From a virus, in the IMG/VR virus record IMGVR_UViG_3300043570_002319, positions 1 to 24,706 of that record: a stretch of DNA of 24,706 nucleotides. The stretch is one strand, 5' to 3'. The position numbers and the translations under genes are program-made. Each line of letters begins with the position of its first letter. Position 1 is the first letter of the stretch. The notes below the pieces were generated by a model. The model was not told the origin of the DNA, did no database searches, and was given only the letters and a program-made list of their open reading frames with translations. This document shows, piece after piece, positions 5,138 through 15,587 of the stretch.

Positions 5138-5151
5138 TATTATTAATAATA
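5138..5151. promoter_or_regulatory. 14-bp perfect palindrome, possible operator
   Basis: TATTATTAATAATA is a perfect palindrome. It sits two bases from the -35 box of the uvdE promoter and just before the Shine-Dalgarno of the divergent secreted-protein gene, so a dimeric regulator bound here could affect both. It may also be a chance AT-rich palindrome. Confidence 0.35.
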
Positions 5152-5164
5152 AAGGGAAATCAAA

Positions 5165-5728
5165 ATGAAAAAATTATTAGTTATATTGGGATTTATTTTA
5201 GCGTTTAATGCACAAGCACAAACTAAAGGCATCACTATATGTGACGGGCAATATGCTTTGTGTGCAGCATCAACTTGTAAGCCAACCGGAAAAACACTTA
5301 CTGGCAATAATGGCATAGCATATCCAGAGGTAGAATGTCGCTGCCCAATACTTAAAGGGCGTGCAATTGCCGACACTACAGCAGGTAATATGCAAGGGTC
5401 TTGCACCGCTACAGATGATAAGCACGTTTGGAGTTTATTTGCTCCCAAACTTTTCTACCCGCAAGAGACTAATGACTTTAGCAAAAAGCCAAAAGATATG
5501 AAAGCAACACTGCAAAAATGTGATGCTAGTTTGAATCTTGGTAATAAATCTAGCAACTGTTTTAGTTGGAATTGTACCAAAGGTGCTGACGGTATTGCAG
5601 TATGTTCGTGCCCAACAGGACAAGTACCAGCAGCGACAACATTCTTAACAGAAGCAGGTCAGGGTAACCCCGATATTTGCTCTCAGTATCCAGTAAGTAT
5701 GCCCATCCAAAACCCACCGGGCAACTAA
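5165..5728 (+). CDS. secreted Cys-rich protein, probable moron
   Basis: A 187-residue protein and the only complete plus-strand gene in the window. Residues 1-18 form a textbook Sec signal peptide: MKK, a hydrophobic core and an AQA cleavage site. The mature part has 12 cysteines in short clusters (CDGQYALC, ECRCP, NCFSWNC, VCSCPTG), which suggests disulfides and a periplasmic or surface location. There is no lipobox or transmembrane helix beyond the signal. An AAAGGG ribosome site precedes the ATG. Lying reversed within a minus-strand block and closed by a palindrome, it looks like a moron, an independently acquired gene. Possible roles include changing the host envelope or superinfection exclusion, but no function is recognised. 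Confidence 0.85.
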   Translation: MKKLLVILGFILAFNAQAQTKGITICDGQYALCAASTCKPTGKTLTGNNGIAYPEVECRCPILKGRAIADTTAGNMQGSCTATDDKHVWSLFAPKLFYPQETNDFSKKPKDMKATLQKCDASLNLGNKSSNCFSWNCTKGADGIAVCSCPTGQVPAATTFLTEAGQGNPDICSQYPVSMPIQNPPGN

Positions 5729-5736
5729 GATACAAC

Positions 5737-10554: not shown

Positions 10555-10785
10555 TTACCTTTTCAACATCCATATAATATGGGCATTCTTAGAATGCCAT
10601 TTATATTCAAATATGGTATCACCCGGACCTGTCCACATAGCTGTTAGTCTATAAGACTTTTTTAGCCAGATACGTTTGCCTGTTAGATTACAAAGTTCGG
10701 GTAACCATGCAAATTTAAGTTCTGCACCTAAATATCTGTTACGATAGAAATCATTGTATGTGGTACCCATACTATCTAAAGGCAT
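10555..10785 (-). CDS. 76-aa phage protein of unknown function
   Basis: A 76-residue basic, aromatic protein. The start is taken as ATG at 10785, which overlaps the queE stop (TGATG); a GTG one codon upstream is an alternative. It contains DFYRNRYLGAELKFAWLPELC, LTGKRIWLKKSYRLTAMWTGPGD and an EYKWHSKNAH tail, suggesting a small beta-rich domain. It lies directly after queE and could be tied to it, but there is no motif to support a role. Confidence 0.7.
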   Translation of the reverse strand: MPLDSMGTTYNDFYRNRYLGAELKFAWLPELCNLTGKRIWLKKSYRLTAMWTGPGDTIFEYKWHSKNAHIIWMLKR

Positions 10786-11651
10786 CACGTACCCCAGAGG
10801 TTCTTGAAAAGAGGTACTTGTAATCTATCACTGTATCGCAGACCATGCTTAATCGCAAATAATGCTACATTACGATTGTTCATCTCGTAAACCTTTTCCG
10901 TACCACCAACTGGCATTAGATAAACCGGACCTTTAAACCCTGCTGCTCTATATTCAGCAGTAGCCTTCAAGGCATCTTGGGCATCTTCTTCACTGGCAAC
11001 TACGAATTTTAGATAAGCAAATCCAACATTTTCATAATCACGTACAATTTCAGTACAGATAGCATCTTCCCATTTCTCACCACTACCCGGCAGTTTAGGG
11101 CTTACTGAAAATGTAATCTCTCCACCAGAACCATGTGGATATTGACGTTGATTCCATGTCTTCAGATACTTGGTAAATTCGTCAGTTAGTGGTTGAGTAC
11201 CATTAGTCTCAAATGTAATTTCATTTAGTCCATTCATCTTTGGATGCTCAATCAAATCTGGGTAAGCACGTTGCCAACCCAATAATGGTTCTCCACCAGT
11301 GATTACTAGATGTTCATCACGCCACTCATTGAAGGGCAACATTTCACAAATGCTATCAGCAATGGTGTTAGTGTCAAGCACGGGACTAAGATGCTTGAAT
11401 GCAGGATCCCAGGACGCATAACTATCGCACCCTGTACTTACAAGTGGTAGCTCTTTGTAATTGGCGTATGGACCAAATGCATCTAACGCCGCAATCTTGA
11501 TACGCTCTTGACTTAATTCACCGCGAGGCATACCAAATCCACCACAAGTAAAATTACAACCAAATGTGCGAAGGAACACACTTGGTACCCCCATAAAACG
11601 GCCCTCTCCTTGGATACTATAAAAAAGTTCGCTTATTTTAAGATGTGACAT
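10785..11651 (-). CDS. queE: QueE, 7-carboxy-7-deazaguanine synthase (radical SAM)
   Basis: A 288-residue radical-SAM enzyme. In the preQ0 pathway QueE turns the QueD product into 7-carboxy-7-deazaguanine. Visible are the N-terminal SIQGEGRFMGVPSVFLRTFGC, the glycine motif TGGEPLL and ETNGTQPL. The cluster cysteines are unusual: C32 and C36 (C-x3-C) are present, but the third canonical Cys position is F39. The next cysteine is C75 in STGCDSYASWD, after an insertion. I associate the TGCDSYASW arrangement with phage-type QueE, so it is probably a functional variant. It works with FolE and QueD here and DpdA upstream. Confidence 0.92.
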   Translation of the reverse strand: MSHLKISELFYSIQGEGRFMGVPSVFLRTFGCNFTCGGFGMPRGELSQERIKIAALDAFGPYANYKELPLVSTGCDSYASWDPAFKHLSPVLDTNTIADSICEMLPFNEWRDEHLVITGGEPLLGWQRAYPDLIEHPKMNGLNEITFETNGTQPLTDEFTKYLKTWNQRQYPHGSGGEITFSVSPKLPGSGEKWEDAICTEIVRDYENVGFAYLKFVVASEEDAQDALKATAEYRAAGFKGPVYLMPVGGTEKVYEMNNRNVALFAIKHGLRYSDRLQVPLFKNLWGT

Positions 11652-11844: not shown

Positions 11845-12324
11845 TTAAAACAATTCTTCATTATCTTCTCTATGCCCGATACGCATTGCCATATTTGAAG
11901 GGGTCTCTCGTACTTCTACTTTAGAACACCACAACCTATCTGCTTCAACTCTACCGTAATCTGGAAGAAAGATACCATTTACATATTTGTAAAGATAATC
12001 AGCTAACCCCTCACAGCCAGTCTTTTCAACTTCAGTGATTTTGGCCAATCCCAAATCACCTAGTCGTTTGATATCAGCGTAGTGAGGATCATCTTGTGCT
12101 AAGAGTAATGCATGGTCAAAATGTTCTTCAAGGAAGGACTTAAGTGGCCGCAGCCCGCCGTAATCCATTGCCCAGTTTCTCACATCAAGATCATCGCATT
12201 CAAACTCAAACTTAAATGATAACGCATATCCGTGAATGAGATTACAATGGCTATCTGCACGCCATTGACGATACGCAACTGGCGCAATGTTAGAATATTC
12301 TTTAGTTGATATGTATTTTGCCAT
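11845..12324 (-). CDS. queD: QueD, 6-carboxy-5,6,7,8-tetrahydropterin synthase
   Basis: A 159-residue T-fold enzyme that converts the FolE product, dihydroneopterin triphosphate, into 6-carboxytetrahydropterin for QueE. Catalytic residues can be placed: C27 in SHCNLIHGY, the D70-H71 pair in FDHALLL, and Glu in VRETPSNMAMR near the C-terminus. The metal site is odd, with H26 next to the catalytic Cys, H31, and Tyr33 where the usual HGH motif has a second His. The ATG at 12324 has no visible Shine-Dalgarno (upstream is A-rich). A damaged copy of its first 43 bases lies upstream beyond a 67-aa gene. Confidence 0.92.
   Translation of the reverse strand: MAKYISTKEYSNIAPVAYRQWRADSHCNLIHGYALSFKFEFECDDLDVRNWAMDYGGLRPLKSFLEEHFDHALLLAQDDPHYADIKRLGDLGLAKITEVEKTGCEGLADYLYKYVNGIFLPDYGRVEADRLWCSKVEVRETPSNMAMRIGHREDNEELF
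12282..12324 (-). repeat. direct repeat, intact copy (queD 5' end)
   Basis: The first ~43 bases of queD are repeated almost exactly at 12556-12598 in the same orientation. The second copy differs by a one-base deletion in the run of As after ATGGC and a few substitutions. Confidence 0.85.
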
Positions 12325-12344
12325 GATTTTTTTCTAAATGTTTT

Positions 12345-12548
12345 TTATTGTGCTTTGCGACCATCTGAAACTTTGTAAAAAGCTTCAACCTCAACCGAAG
12401 AATAAGCGTGTTGAATATGTTCAGCACCCTGGAGGGTGTTGGTTATTTTTAACTCACACACCACCCCTAGTAAAGCTAGGTGTCGTATAGTCTCGTTAAG
12501 GTCTACTAGTTGCTGTTTGATCATCTGGCCCAACGCACGTTCGGTCAT
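12345..12548 (-). CDS. 67-aa protein of unknown function in a repeat-flanked cassette
   Basis: A 67-residue protein, MTERALGQMIKQ..., with a helical N-terminal half (QQLVDLNETIRHLALLG) and a beta-like C-terminal half. GGCAGG lies just upstream of the ATG, and the ATG overlaps the stop of a 17-codon leader reading frame (ATGA), so its translation may be coupled to it. The gene lies between two copies of the queD 5' end and looks like an insertion separating queD from its promoter. Function unknown. Confidence 0.65.
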   Translation of the reverse strand: MTERALGQMIKQQLVDLNETIRHLALLGVVCELKITNTLQGAEHIQHAYSSVEVEAFYKVSDGRKAQ

Positions 12549-12598
12549 ACACCTGCCCGCAATGTTTGACTATTCTTTAGTTGATATGTATTTGCCAT
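12545..12598 (-). pseudogene. decayed copy of the queD 5' end, now a 17-codon leader ORF
   Basis: Starting at ATG 12598 the sequence copies the first ~43 bases of queD, but a single-base deletion after ATGGC shifts the frame. The resulting reading frame is MANTYQLKNSQTLRAGV, ending in TGA that overlaps the ATG of the 67-aa gene. The ATG lies 5 nt after a perfect TATAAT. It is either a remnant or a short leader peptide that delivers ribosomes to the downstream gene. Confidence 0.7.
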
Positions 12599-12603
12599 TA
12601 TCT

Positions 12604-12632
12604 ATTATAACACACCCATTGTAATTTGTATA
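12604..12632 (-). promoter_or_regulatory. sigma70-type promoter, original queD promoter candidate
   Basis: On the minus strand TATACA (12632-12627; four of six match TTGACA), a 17-nt spacer and a perfect TATAAT (12609-12604), then 5 nt and ATG at 12598. A leaderless or nearly leaderless transcript is predicted. Confidence 0.65.
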
Positions 12633-12633
12633 T

Positions 12634-12647
12634 AGGGCAAATGCCCT
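12634..12647. other. short hairpin after the kinase/nucleotidyltransferase gene
   Basis: AGGGCAAATGCCCT can form a 6-bp stem with a 2-nt loop, starting 8 bases after the stop of the upstream minus-strand gene. No U-run follows on either strand, so it is only a weak terminator candidate. Confidence 0.3.
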
Positions 12648-12655
12648 TTCTATAC

Positions 12656-13447
12656 TTATTTACCTAAATTCAATTCTTTTCTAATGGTTGTTGCACTGAT
12701 TTTTACAATGCTCTCGTCAAAAATTTCTTCGCCTGAAGTGTAGCCGACCCCTCGCCCCCATCCAATATGAACAATATTAGGCACAACTTGTATTTCGTAT
12801 TGCCCTTGAAAGAGTGGATCTAAATCGCGGCGAATAAACCTAGTAACCTGGTTAATAGCAAATGGATTGCTACCTTGCCAACCCTGAACATCACGAATTT
12901 GTATTATCACTTGTCCGGTTCGTGCTATCAACCGTTCAAATAGCGCACGATGCCCGTCATGCCAGGGTTGCCAACGACCTAACATTTGTACCGTTTCTTT
13001 TTTCCAATCAAACACTGGTCGGCGCCGCTTGTCTAGGATATGGCCAGCAATAAATTCAGCCCACTTCTCTGAATTTTGTTCCGTAACACGAAAGTCGTAT
13101 ACTTCTGGTTCTACAAACATAGCATTTGTATCTGCATACCTACCTTCTTGTATGGTGTCCATCCAAATAGTCCAATCGGCTTTGTAGTTATTACGCATAT
13201 CAACTAGCGGTGCTACAAAATCACAAATCACATATTGTGTGTGTGACTCATCCGCCAATGCTCGCATACGTTTACTTTGTCGAATGCGGCCTTCTTGGCT
13301 GAAATCCCAGTCATCGTATTGTTTCCTGATTTCATCTGCATTCAACCATCCAACTTCGCGGTCGGCTAGCATTAGTTCAATTTTCAATCTGTGAGCCAGG
13401 GTGGTTTTACCAGAGCCAGGCAAGCCCATTATCAATATTCGTTCCAT
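12656..13447 (-). CDS. fusion of APS-kinase-like domain and nucleotidylyltransferase domain
   Basis: A 263-residue two-domain protein. The N-terminal ~145 residues are a P-loop kinase: GLPGSGKTT at 8-16, LNADEIRKQYDDWDFS, and VICDFVAPLVDMR, the layout of APS kinase (CysC). The C-terminal part is a HIGH-type nucleotidylyltransferase: GRWQPWHDGH at about 157-166 and ISATTIRKEL near the end, as in NMN/pantetheine adenylyltransferases. The kinase-then-transferase order resembles PAPS synthetases, but the transferase lacks ATP sulfurylase motifs. It probably phosphorylates and activates a small molecule with a nucleotide. AAGGAT precedes the ATG. The next gene is another nucleotidylyltransferase, which suggests a shared pathway; the substrate is unknown. 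Confidence 0.85.
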   Translation of the reverse strand: MERILIMGLPGSGKTTLAHRLKIELMLADREVGWLNADEIRKQYDDWDFSQEGRIRQSKRMRALADESHTQYVICDFVAPLVDMRNNYKADWTIWMDTIQEGRYADTNAMFVEPEVYDFRVTEQNSEKWAEFIAGHILDKRRRPVFDWKKETVQMLGRWQPWHDGHRALFERLIARTGQVIIQIRDVQGWQGSNPFAINQVTRFIRRDLDPLFQGQYEIQVVPNIVHIGWGRGVGYTSGEEIFDESIVKISATTIRKELNLGK

Positions 13448-15289: not shown

Positions 15290-15391
15290 TTATACCGGGG
15301 ACTTTGAAGTAAGAACTACTTCAATTCCAGTTCGTCCAATGGCCTTAAGCCAAGTATTCAATCTGTTCATAATGACGGTATCATCCTTTGG
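15290..15391 (-). pseudogene. second copy of the neighbouring gene's C-terminal module, out of frame
   Basis: Directly after the 68-aa gene, shifted +1, the sequence encodes 33 residues (PKDDTVIMNRLNTWLKAIGRT...SPV) that closely copy the last part of that gene (PKDDSVIIHHLNTWLKAIGRT...). The frame joins at CCC-A near 15389-15392. It is either a relic of tandem duplication or is reached by +1 frameshifting. An internal ATG could yield a 26-residue peptide. Confidence 0.7.
15304..15324. other. hairpin at the end of the duplicated module
   Basis: TTGAAGTA and TACTTCAA form a perfect 8-bp stem around a 5-nt loop. It overlaps the coding relic and lacks a U-run. Possibly an mRNA 3' or leader structure before the Hc1-like gene. 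Confidence 0.3.
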
Positions 15392-15587
15392 GCGATGATA
15401 CTGGAATTACTTCAATGTTAGTTCGTCCAATAGCTTTAAGCCAAGTATTAAGATGATGAATGATAACTGAATCGTCCTTGGGATTATCAAAGCTAATAGA
15501 TACATCCATTAAAGTATCATTAGTTGAATCTTCTCTGCTACCGAAAGACAGAGAGTAATTTGTATTGATTTTTTCTTGCTGTGCCAC
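15381..15587 (-). CDS. 68-aa phage protein with duplicated C-terminal module
   Basis: A 68-residue protein starting GTG at 15587. It has a Ser/Asp-rich N-terminal half (MAQQEKINTNYSLSFGSRED) and the module NPKDDSVIIHHLNTWLKAIGRTNIEVI. The stop TGA occurs exactly where a second copy of the module begins in the +1 frame. HHLNTWLKAIG looks helical and amphipathic. Only a weak AAGAAAG lies upstream of the GTG. Function unknown. Confidence 0.7.
   Translation of the reverse strand: MAQQEKINTNYSLSFGSREDSTNDTLMDVSISFDNPKDDSVIIHHLNTWLKAIGRTNIEVIPVSSPKG

Follow-up and report, generated by a model that had tools for sequence, protein, structure and literature searches.

Why does the start of queD stand twice, in the same orientation, in a viral genome that carries a small gene between the two copies, and what might the upstream copy do now? 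The locus lies on the minus strand of a 24.7-kb IMG/VR virus record, the whole of which is referred to here as the window. The minus-strand gene order is folE, a 49-aa gene, a 78-aa gene, a 164-aa nucleotidyltransferase gene, a 263-aa kinase/NadR-like gene, the upstream copy (the stub) with the small gene (gene X), queD and queE. The NadR-like nucleotidyltransferase/kinase gene (12656-13447, an ORF with Pfam and PHROG matches) is the native upstream gene and forms the left flank of the insertion; it adjoins queD in syntenic relatives. Intact queD (11845-12324) encodes a 159-aa member of the 6-pyruvoyl/6-carboxytetrahydropterin synthase family (Pfam PTPS, 2.1e-14; phrog_2389 QueD-like, 1.3e-35) and is followed by a queE-like radical SAM gene (10785-11651; phrog_2076 QueE-like, 4.5e-50). 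The interval from nadR to queD contains, in order, a hairpin, an extended -10 promoter, five bases, a 17-codon ORF, gene X and a 20-nt spacer. Neither a near-identity search of named phages nor an Rfam search of the whole window gave a match. The explanation that we favour, with moderate confidence, is that out-of-register recombination inserted gene X and duplicated the queD start, and that the stub now feeds gene X.

Gene X and the duplicated queD start

Compared without gaps, the two copies form a repeat of 36 nt with 94% identity and a spacing of 275; with one gap allowed the repeat extends to 45 columns, pairing 12601-12558 in the stub with 12327-12283 in the intact gene. This alignment has a local score of 67-68, whereas 2,000 shuffles of the upstream region never exceeded 31, and this bears out the claim of the first-pass annotation that the start of queD is repeated here. 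When 122 non-redundant loci (1.48 Mb) were each compared with themselves, similar repeats were few, apart from tRNAs, repetitive proteins and paralogues. The stub represents the first 42 nt of queD (about 14 codons) with one A deleted and two substitutions, followed by nine unmatched bases; a TAT of queD reads TAG in it. In queD type the stub agrees with the intact gene, and at a position where the intact copy has T it shares an A with the relative L016, which is what a duplication with later mutations in both copies should leave.

We retrieved 80 loci with queD homologues and 80 with homologues of the NadR-like gene. Six of these loci (L091, L092, L105, L135, L143 and L146) share the gene order and have an empty site, in which nadR, promoter and queD follow one another and both stub and gene X are absent. 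From nadR to the queD alignment these six have 74-92 nt, which contain a hairpin, TTTACAAATT, a TATAAT and AACATAGGAGAA before the ATG. The closest queD relatives (L016-L019, 92% aa identity) lack the block from the 78-aa gene to nadR, and run from folE through a short ORF to queD. Gene X was found beside queD only in the window and in three contigs of the same phage type (L002-L004), all with the same scar; as these carriers are all near-identical, the arrangement probably goes back to a single event.

Gene X (12345-12548) encodes an uncharacterised 67-aa protein and has matches in 11 viral loci, namely these three contigs and eight others (L005-L012). In the eight it always stands directly behind an IscA-like gene (Pfam Fe-S_biosyn); in several of them IscU is found just upstream. 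The iscA stop codon and the ATG of gene X overlap as ATGA, the same overlap that gene X makes with the stub. At the nucleotide level, L005, L006 and L008-L010 match exactly 12355-12550, a stretch that begins 2 nt ahead of the ATG and reaches about codon 64; in L007 the match is 12367-12550. The protein is strongly conserved (88% mean column identity), and its AlphaFold model consists of one helix and a beta hairpin (pLDDT 84). There was no Pfam match and only a weak, non-significant PHROG of unknown function; there was no significant match in the PDB, and small uncharacterised phage proteins gave only weak ones. Named phages yielded no convincing homologue (one weak match lay inside an RNA polymerase gene), and a search for a bacterial homologue found none. 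No transposase, nuclease, intron or other mobile-element signature was found in the insert with Pfam and PHROG, or with Rfam over the window. We did not find queD in the records with iscA-linked gene X, which are fragments, nor gene X in a tested subset of other large phage records that carry iscA. Elsewhere, L111 (5622-7112) and L170 (329-1853) have a NadR-like gene between or beside iscU and iscA.

These comparisons support the earlier proposal that insertion of a small gene separated queD from its promoter and duplicated the start. Two of the checks that it called for came out in its favour, with six syntenic relatives without the 67-aa gene and eight other viral contigs with homologues of it, and the repeat is not universal among the relatives and is no general element. 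Insertion of gene X before queD, with a duplicated queD start, is thus well supported by comparison of these loci.

The 17-codon stub and its possible use

The stub ORF (12545-12598), delimited by repeat alignment and frame reading, begins with an ATG at 12598 that follows a TATAAT (12609-12604) and the bases AGATA, and its 17 codons translate as MANTYQLKNSQTLRAGV. It ends in a TGA (12547-12545) that forms an ATGA overlap with the start codon of gene X (12548). The TATAAT placed 5 nt before the start and the one-base deletion that leaves a 17-codon frame ending in the ATGA of the 67-aa gene had both been described in the first-pass annotation, and both are confirmed. Between the stub repeat and gene X lie nine junction bases, GGCAGGTGT. 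The iscA tail was considered as their source, both sequences containing TGCGGG, but this would need an additional 12-nt deletion and we do not claim it. When the missing A is restored and TAG is read as TAT, the queD frame continues through GGC AGG TGT into gene X in frame (MAKYISTKEYSNIA-GRC-MTE...). The join may therefore have begun as an in-frame fusion, although the chance of such a frame by accident is one in three; a fusion intermediate, with an unbroken stub joined to gene X, was not seen among the genomes compared. In the explanation that we favour, the join would probably first have fused 14 queD codons, via Gly-Arg-Cys, to gene X. The TAG derived from TAT would have cut this fusion, and the deletion in the run of A would bypass the TAG, so that the frame ends at ATGA.

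The present transcript would then comprise stub, gene X and queD, perhaps continuing into queE. Ribosomes would start at its 5'-terminal AUG, translate the stub, stop at the UGA and restart on the overlapping AUG of gene X, so that the stub overlap would replace the one with iscA seen elsewhere, and queD would now rely on a weakened leader, on coupling to gene X or on both. On this view the broken queD start would have become a leaderless leader cistron of 17 codons that hands ribosomes on to gene X and thence to queD, in a phage group in which a sizeable set of genes appears to have leaderless starts under consensus promoters of sigma-70 type; this is a plausible suggestion, though less likely than not, and we make it with hesitation. 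Both of its elements have precedents. Leaderless mRNAs are known in bacteria and phage, lambda cI being mentioned in a review (PMC9031893); they have been surveyed in bacteria (PMC3160421), and a -10 box next to the ORF has been described in Deinococcus-Thermus (PMC12340547). The stub resembles these in that its -10 box ends 5-7 nt before the ATG, no Shine-Dalgarno is present and the transcript would begin with AUG, but differs in that the ORF is a 17-codon gene remnant with a predicted transcript. Among overlapping ATGA gene pairs, termination-reinitiation was common in those tested (PMC6728339). The stub stop and gene X start overlap in this manner, as do iscA and gene X elsewhere, but here the partner on the upstream side is what remains of a gene start and not a functional gene, and the coupling is putative.

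Alternatively, the same insertion may have left a dead stub that persists as 5' untranslated debris, gene X having a weak translation signal of its own (GCAGGTGT-ATG); we regard this as a serious possibility though short of probable. An AGGTG does stand just before the gene X ATG, but its spacing from the ATG is short. The stub has two lesions, which would suit debris, and no signal of selection is measurable: its sequence is totally identical among the carriers, but so is much of the neighbouring sequence, and the identity is therefore uninformative on selection. Moreover, the present ATGA overlap would result from 36 of 39 single-base deletions and need not, therefore, have been selected. 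Against this, the end of the frame falls precisely on ATGA, as it does where gene X is linked to iscA, and an AUG at the very 5' end should capture ribosomes. We also considered a riboswitch or other structured RNA and rejected it (no Rfam match, and RNA folding no better than that of shuffles).

Probable recombination and the source of the duplicate

Mosaic phage genomes arise by illegitimate recombination and by the acquisition of morons. For the present locus we propose that out-of-register, non-homologous recombination between phages put gene X between the queD promoter and queD. As in other mosaics, a single gene has been inserted, there are no signs of a mobile element and homology ends near the gene borders; unlike them, this junction retains a 45-bp near-identical direct repeat and, unlike a classical moron, gene X displays neither its own promoter nor its own terminator. 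A search of the literature for illegitimate phage junctions that carry partial duplications yielded no useful report.

Other parts of these genomes bear similar marks. A second scar lies about 2.7 kb away (15305-15587, minus strand), where a 68-aa gene (15381-15587) is followed by the truncated 3' part of a second copy and then by a 62-aa gene. This piece is about 98% identical to L017, the rest of L017 being 69-86% identical, and appears from these values to be a recent transfer. The queD-queE block is 84-91% identical at the nucleotide level to L016 and folE 72%, and this closer relationship indicates that the block has moved. On the opposite strand to its neighbours, a 187-aa gene (5145-5736, plus strand) is 90-92% identical at the nucleotide level to L006, L007 and L009; as these three carry both the iscA-linked gene X and the 187-aa gene, the phages evidently exchange genes.

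Partial copies of queD also occur in other phages. A truncated queD 3' end (residues 129-159) lies 0.6-1.4 kb behind queD in L029 (2610-4073) and likewise in L026, L027, L030, L031 and L038. About 130 nt upstream of intact queD in L039 is a short ORF, MANYQPVTYKYTSTKEYMDLANLLE, that resembles a divergent queD start and is apparently a truncated 5' end. As a separate observation, repeats that begin alike (ATGAACGAACGAATTC...) are clustered as short stretches in L032 (680-2760) and apparently represent tandem small paralogous genes. The opposite-strand stretch between queD and the truncated end in L029 contains what we take to be NUMOD3-like motifs of homing-endonuclease type.

Homing-endonuclease insertions have been described in T4-like phages (PMC2988022). 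The L029 arrangement, an insertion beside queD with a truncated queD end, is similar, whereas gene X differs in that it matches no nuclease family and is modelled as the helix and hairpin described above. Out-of-register recombination between co-infecting relatives would explain the queD scar, the second scar, the moved block and the truncated queD ends.

The duplicate could have come from either one genome or two. In the two-genome version, one phage would have given the promoter and queD start and the other a ready-made block of gene X, leader and queD, with no duplication within a genome. Movement of the queD-queE block and the truncated copies of other queD types (3' ends in L026, L027, L029-L031 and L038, a 5' end in L039) are consistent with such an exchange. 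However, no phage with gene X and queD but without the stub was found, and the stub and intact copy have nearly the same sequence; we consider this version possible but somewhat doubtful.

Promoters, leaders and the leaderless layout

The predicted native queD promoter (12604-12632), recognised by the matching promoter in the six empty-site relatives, consists of a -35-like TATACA (12632-12627), 17 nt and the extended -10 TGTTATAAT, which includes the TATAAT. The extended -10 is good, the -35 matches at only four of six positions, and the promoter-like count of the region is below that of its shuffles. Just upstream, the hairpin AGGGC-ATTT-GCCCT (12634-12647), identified from RNA folds, occupies the place of the relatives' AGCGG...CCGCT hairpin. 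The window promoter corresponds to the relatives' nadR-queD promoter. The queD promoters of L029, L031, L032, L061, L082, L091, L092, L135 and L146 contain a repeated unit, the AGCGG...CCGCT hairpin with TTTACAAATTCTGC, and also carry CCTATG-CTATAATTAA-CATAGG; this palindrome around the -10 box is possibly an operator.

The -10 box of the stub ends within 5-7 nt of the ATG, a layout predicted to be leaderless. Its frequency was examined by scanning all loci for promoters near TTGACA-(16-18)-TATAAT and positioning the ATGs of ORFs of at least 60 codons. These ATGs peak sharply 5-7 nt after the -10 box (46 cases from 28 protein families), against a background of about three families at each other position from 0 to 15 nt (Poisson p 1.6e-8), and show a second, broad rise beyond 16 nt. 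A Shine-Dalgarno match precedes 0 of the 46 starts at 5-7 nt versus 54 of 131 at 16-35 nt, the zero being due in part to lack of room. Two other minus-strand starts in the window have this layout, at ATG 24077 (presumably a tRNA-lysidine-synthetase-like gene) and ATG 6718 (presumably a DNA methyltransferase-like gene). It is also found in homologues of the window's 334-aa gene, which we take to be FEN-nuclease-like, in L016, L017, L019, L026, L037, L038 and L054. Examples of the layout include L016:12864, L026:4623, L037:11708 and L038:14935. By position, the stub appears to have a layout that is used in this phage group, although queD's own was not of this kind.

The first-pass annotation had proposed that queD was itself leaderless in this lineage and that the insertion duplicated a leaderless start. 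The TATAAT-AGATA-ATG spacing, shared with the group's other leaderless-type genes, and the two further such starts in the window would fit, and the intact gene does, as that annotation stated, have no visible Shine-Dalgarno (only TTTAGAAAAAAATC precedes the ATG at 12324). However, not one of the 58 distinct queD starts compared shows a -10 box at 4-8 nt from the ATG (two further -10 hits at 1 nt fall at the end of upstream coding sequence), and promoter-bearing queD starts have a 16-22-nt leader, mostly with a Shine-Dalgarno. In addition, the relatives' leader can be aligned with the sequence that adjoins intact queD (AACATTTAGAAA-A/G-AAATC), and blastn alignments to L143, L146 and L082 continue through the queD leader to 12348. 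Comparison with relatives is thus suggestive that the leader of intact queD, AAAACATTTAGAAAAAAATC (12325-12344), may be a weakened version of their TAACATAGGAGAAAATC; a direct test of the resemblance gave shuffle p values of 0.017-0.033, with 31-39 of 1,774 control leaders scoring as well. A leaderless ancestral queD is therefore not supported, and we consider it improbable; the leaderless position of the stub is probably derived. On the simplest view, queD was once preceded by a leader, of which the intact copy would have kept a weakened form and which the stub would have lost, loss of the Shine-Dalgarno leader bringing the stub to the predicted transcription start. That the repeat is instead a regulatory element, such as an operator or binding site common to gene starts, is highly improbable: it is located at the predicted transcription start, but its sequence is queD coding sequence, a pattern scan of IMG/VR matched only queD starts and this stub, and no further copy occurs near the locus.

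The scar is mainly an ordinary product of phage mosaicism and sloppy recombination. Its value is as a readable snapshot of gene acquisition by a phage, in which the empty site, the usual context of gene X, the scar and the two lesions are all visible and, if the stub is used, as an indication of how a duplicate without function can turn into a working leader for translation. A more general lead than the scar is the recurrence of the leaderless layout. The excess of ATGs 5-7 nt after the -10 box suggests that leaderless initiation is routine in these phages, all of them uncultivated, which affects the annotation of their start codons.
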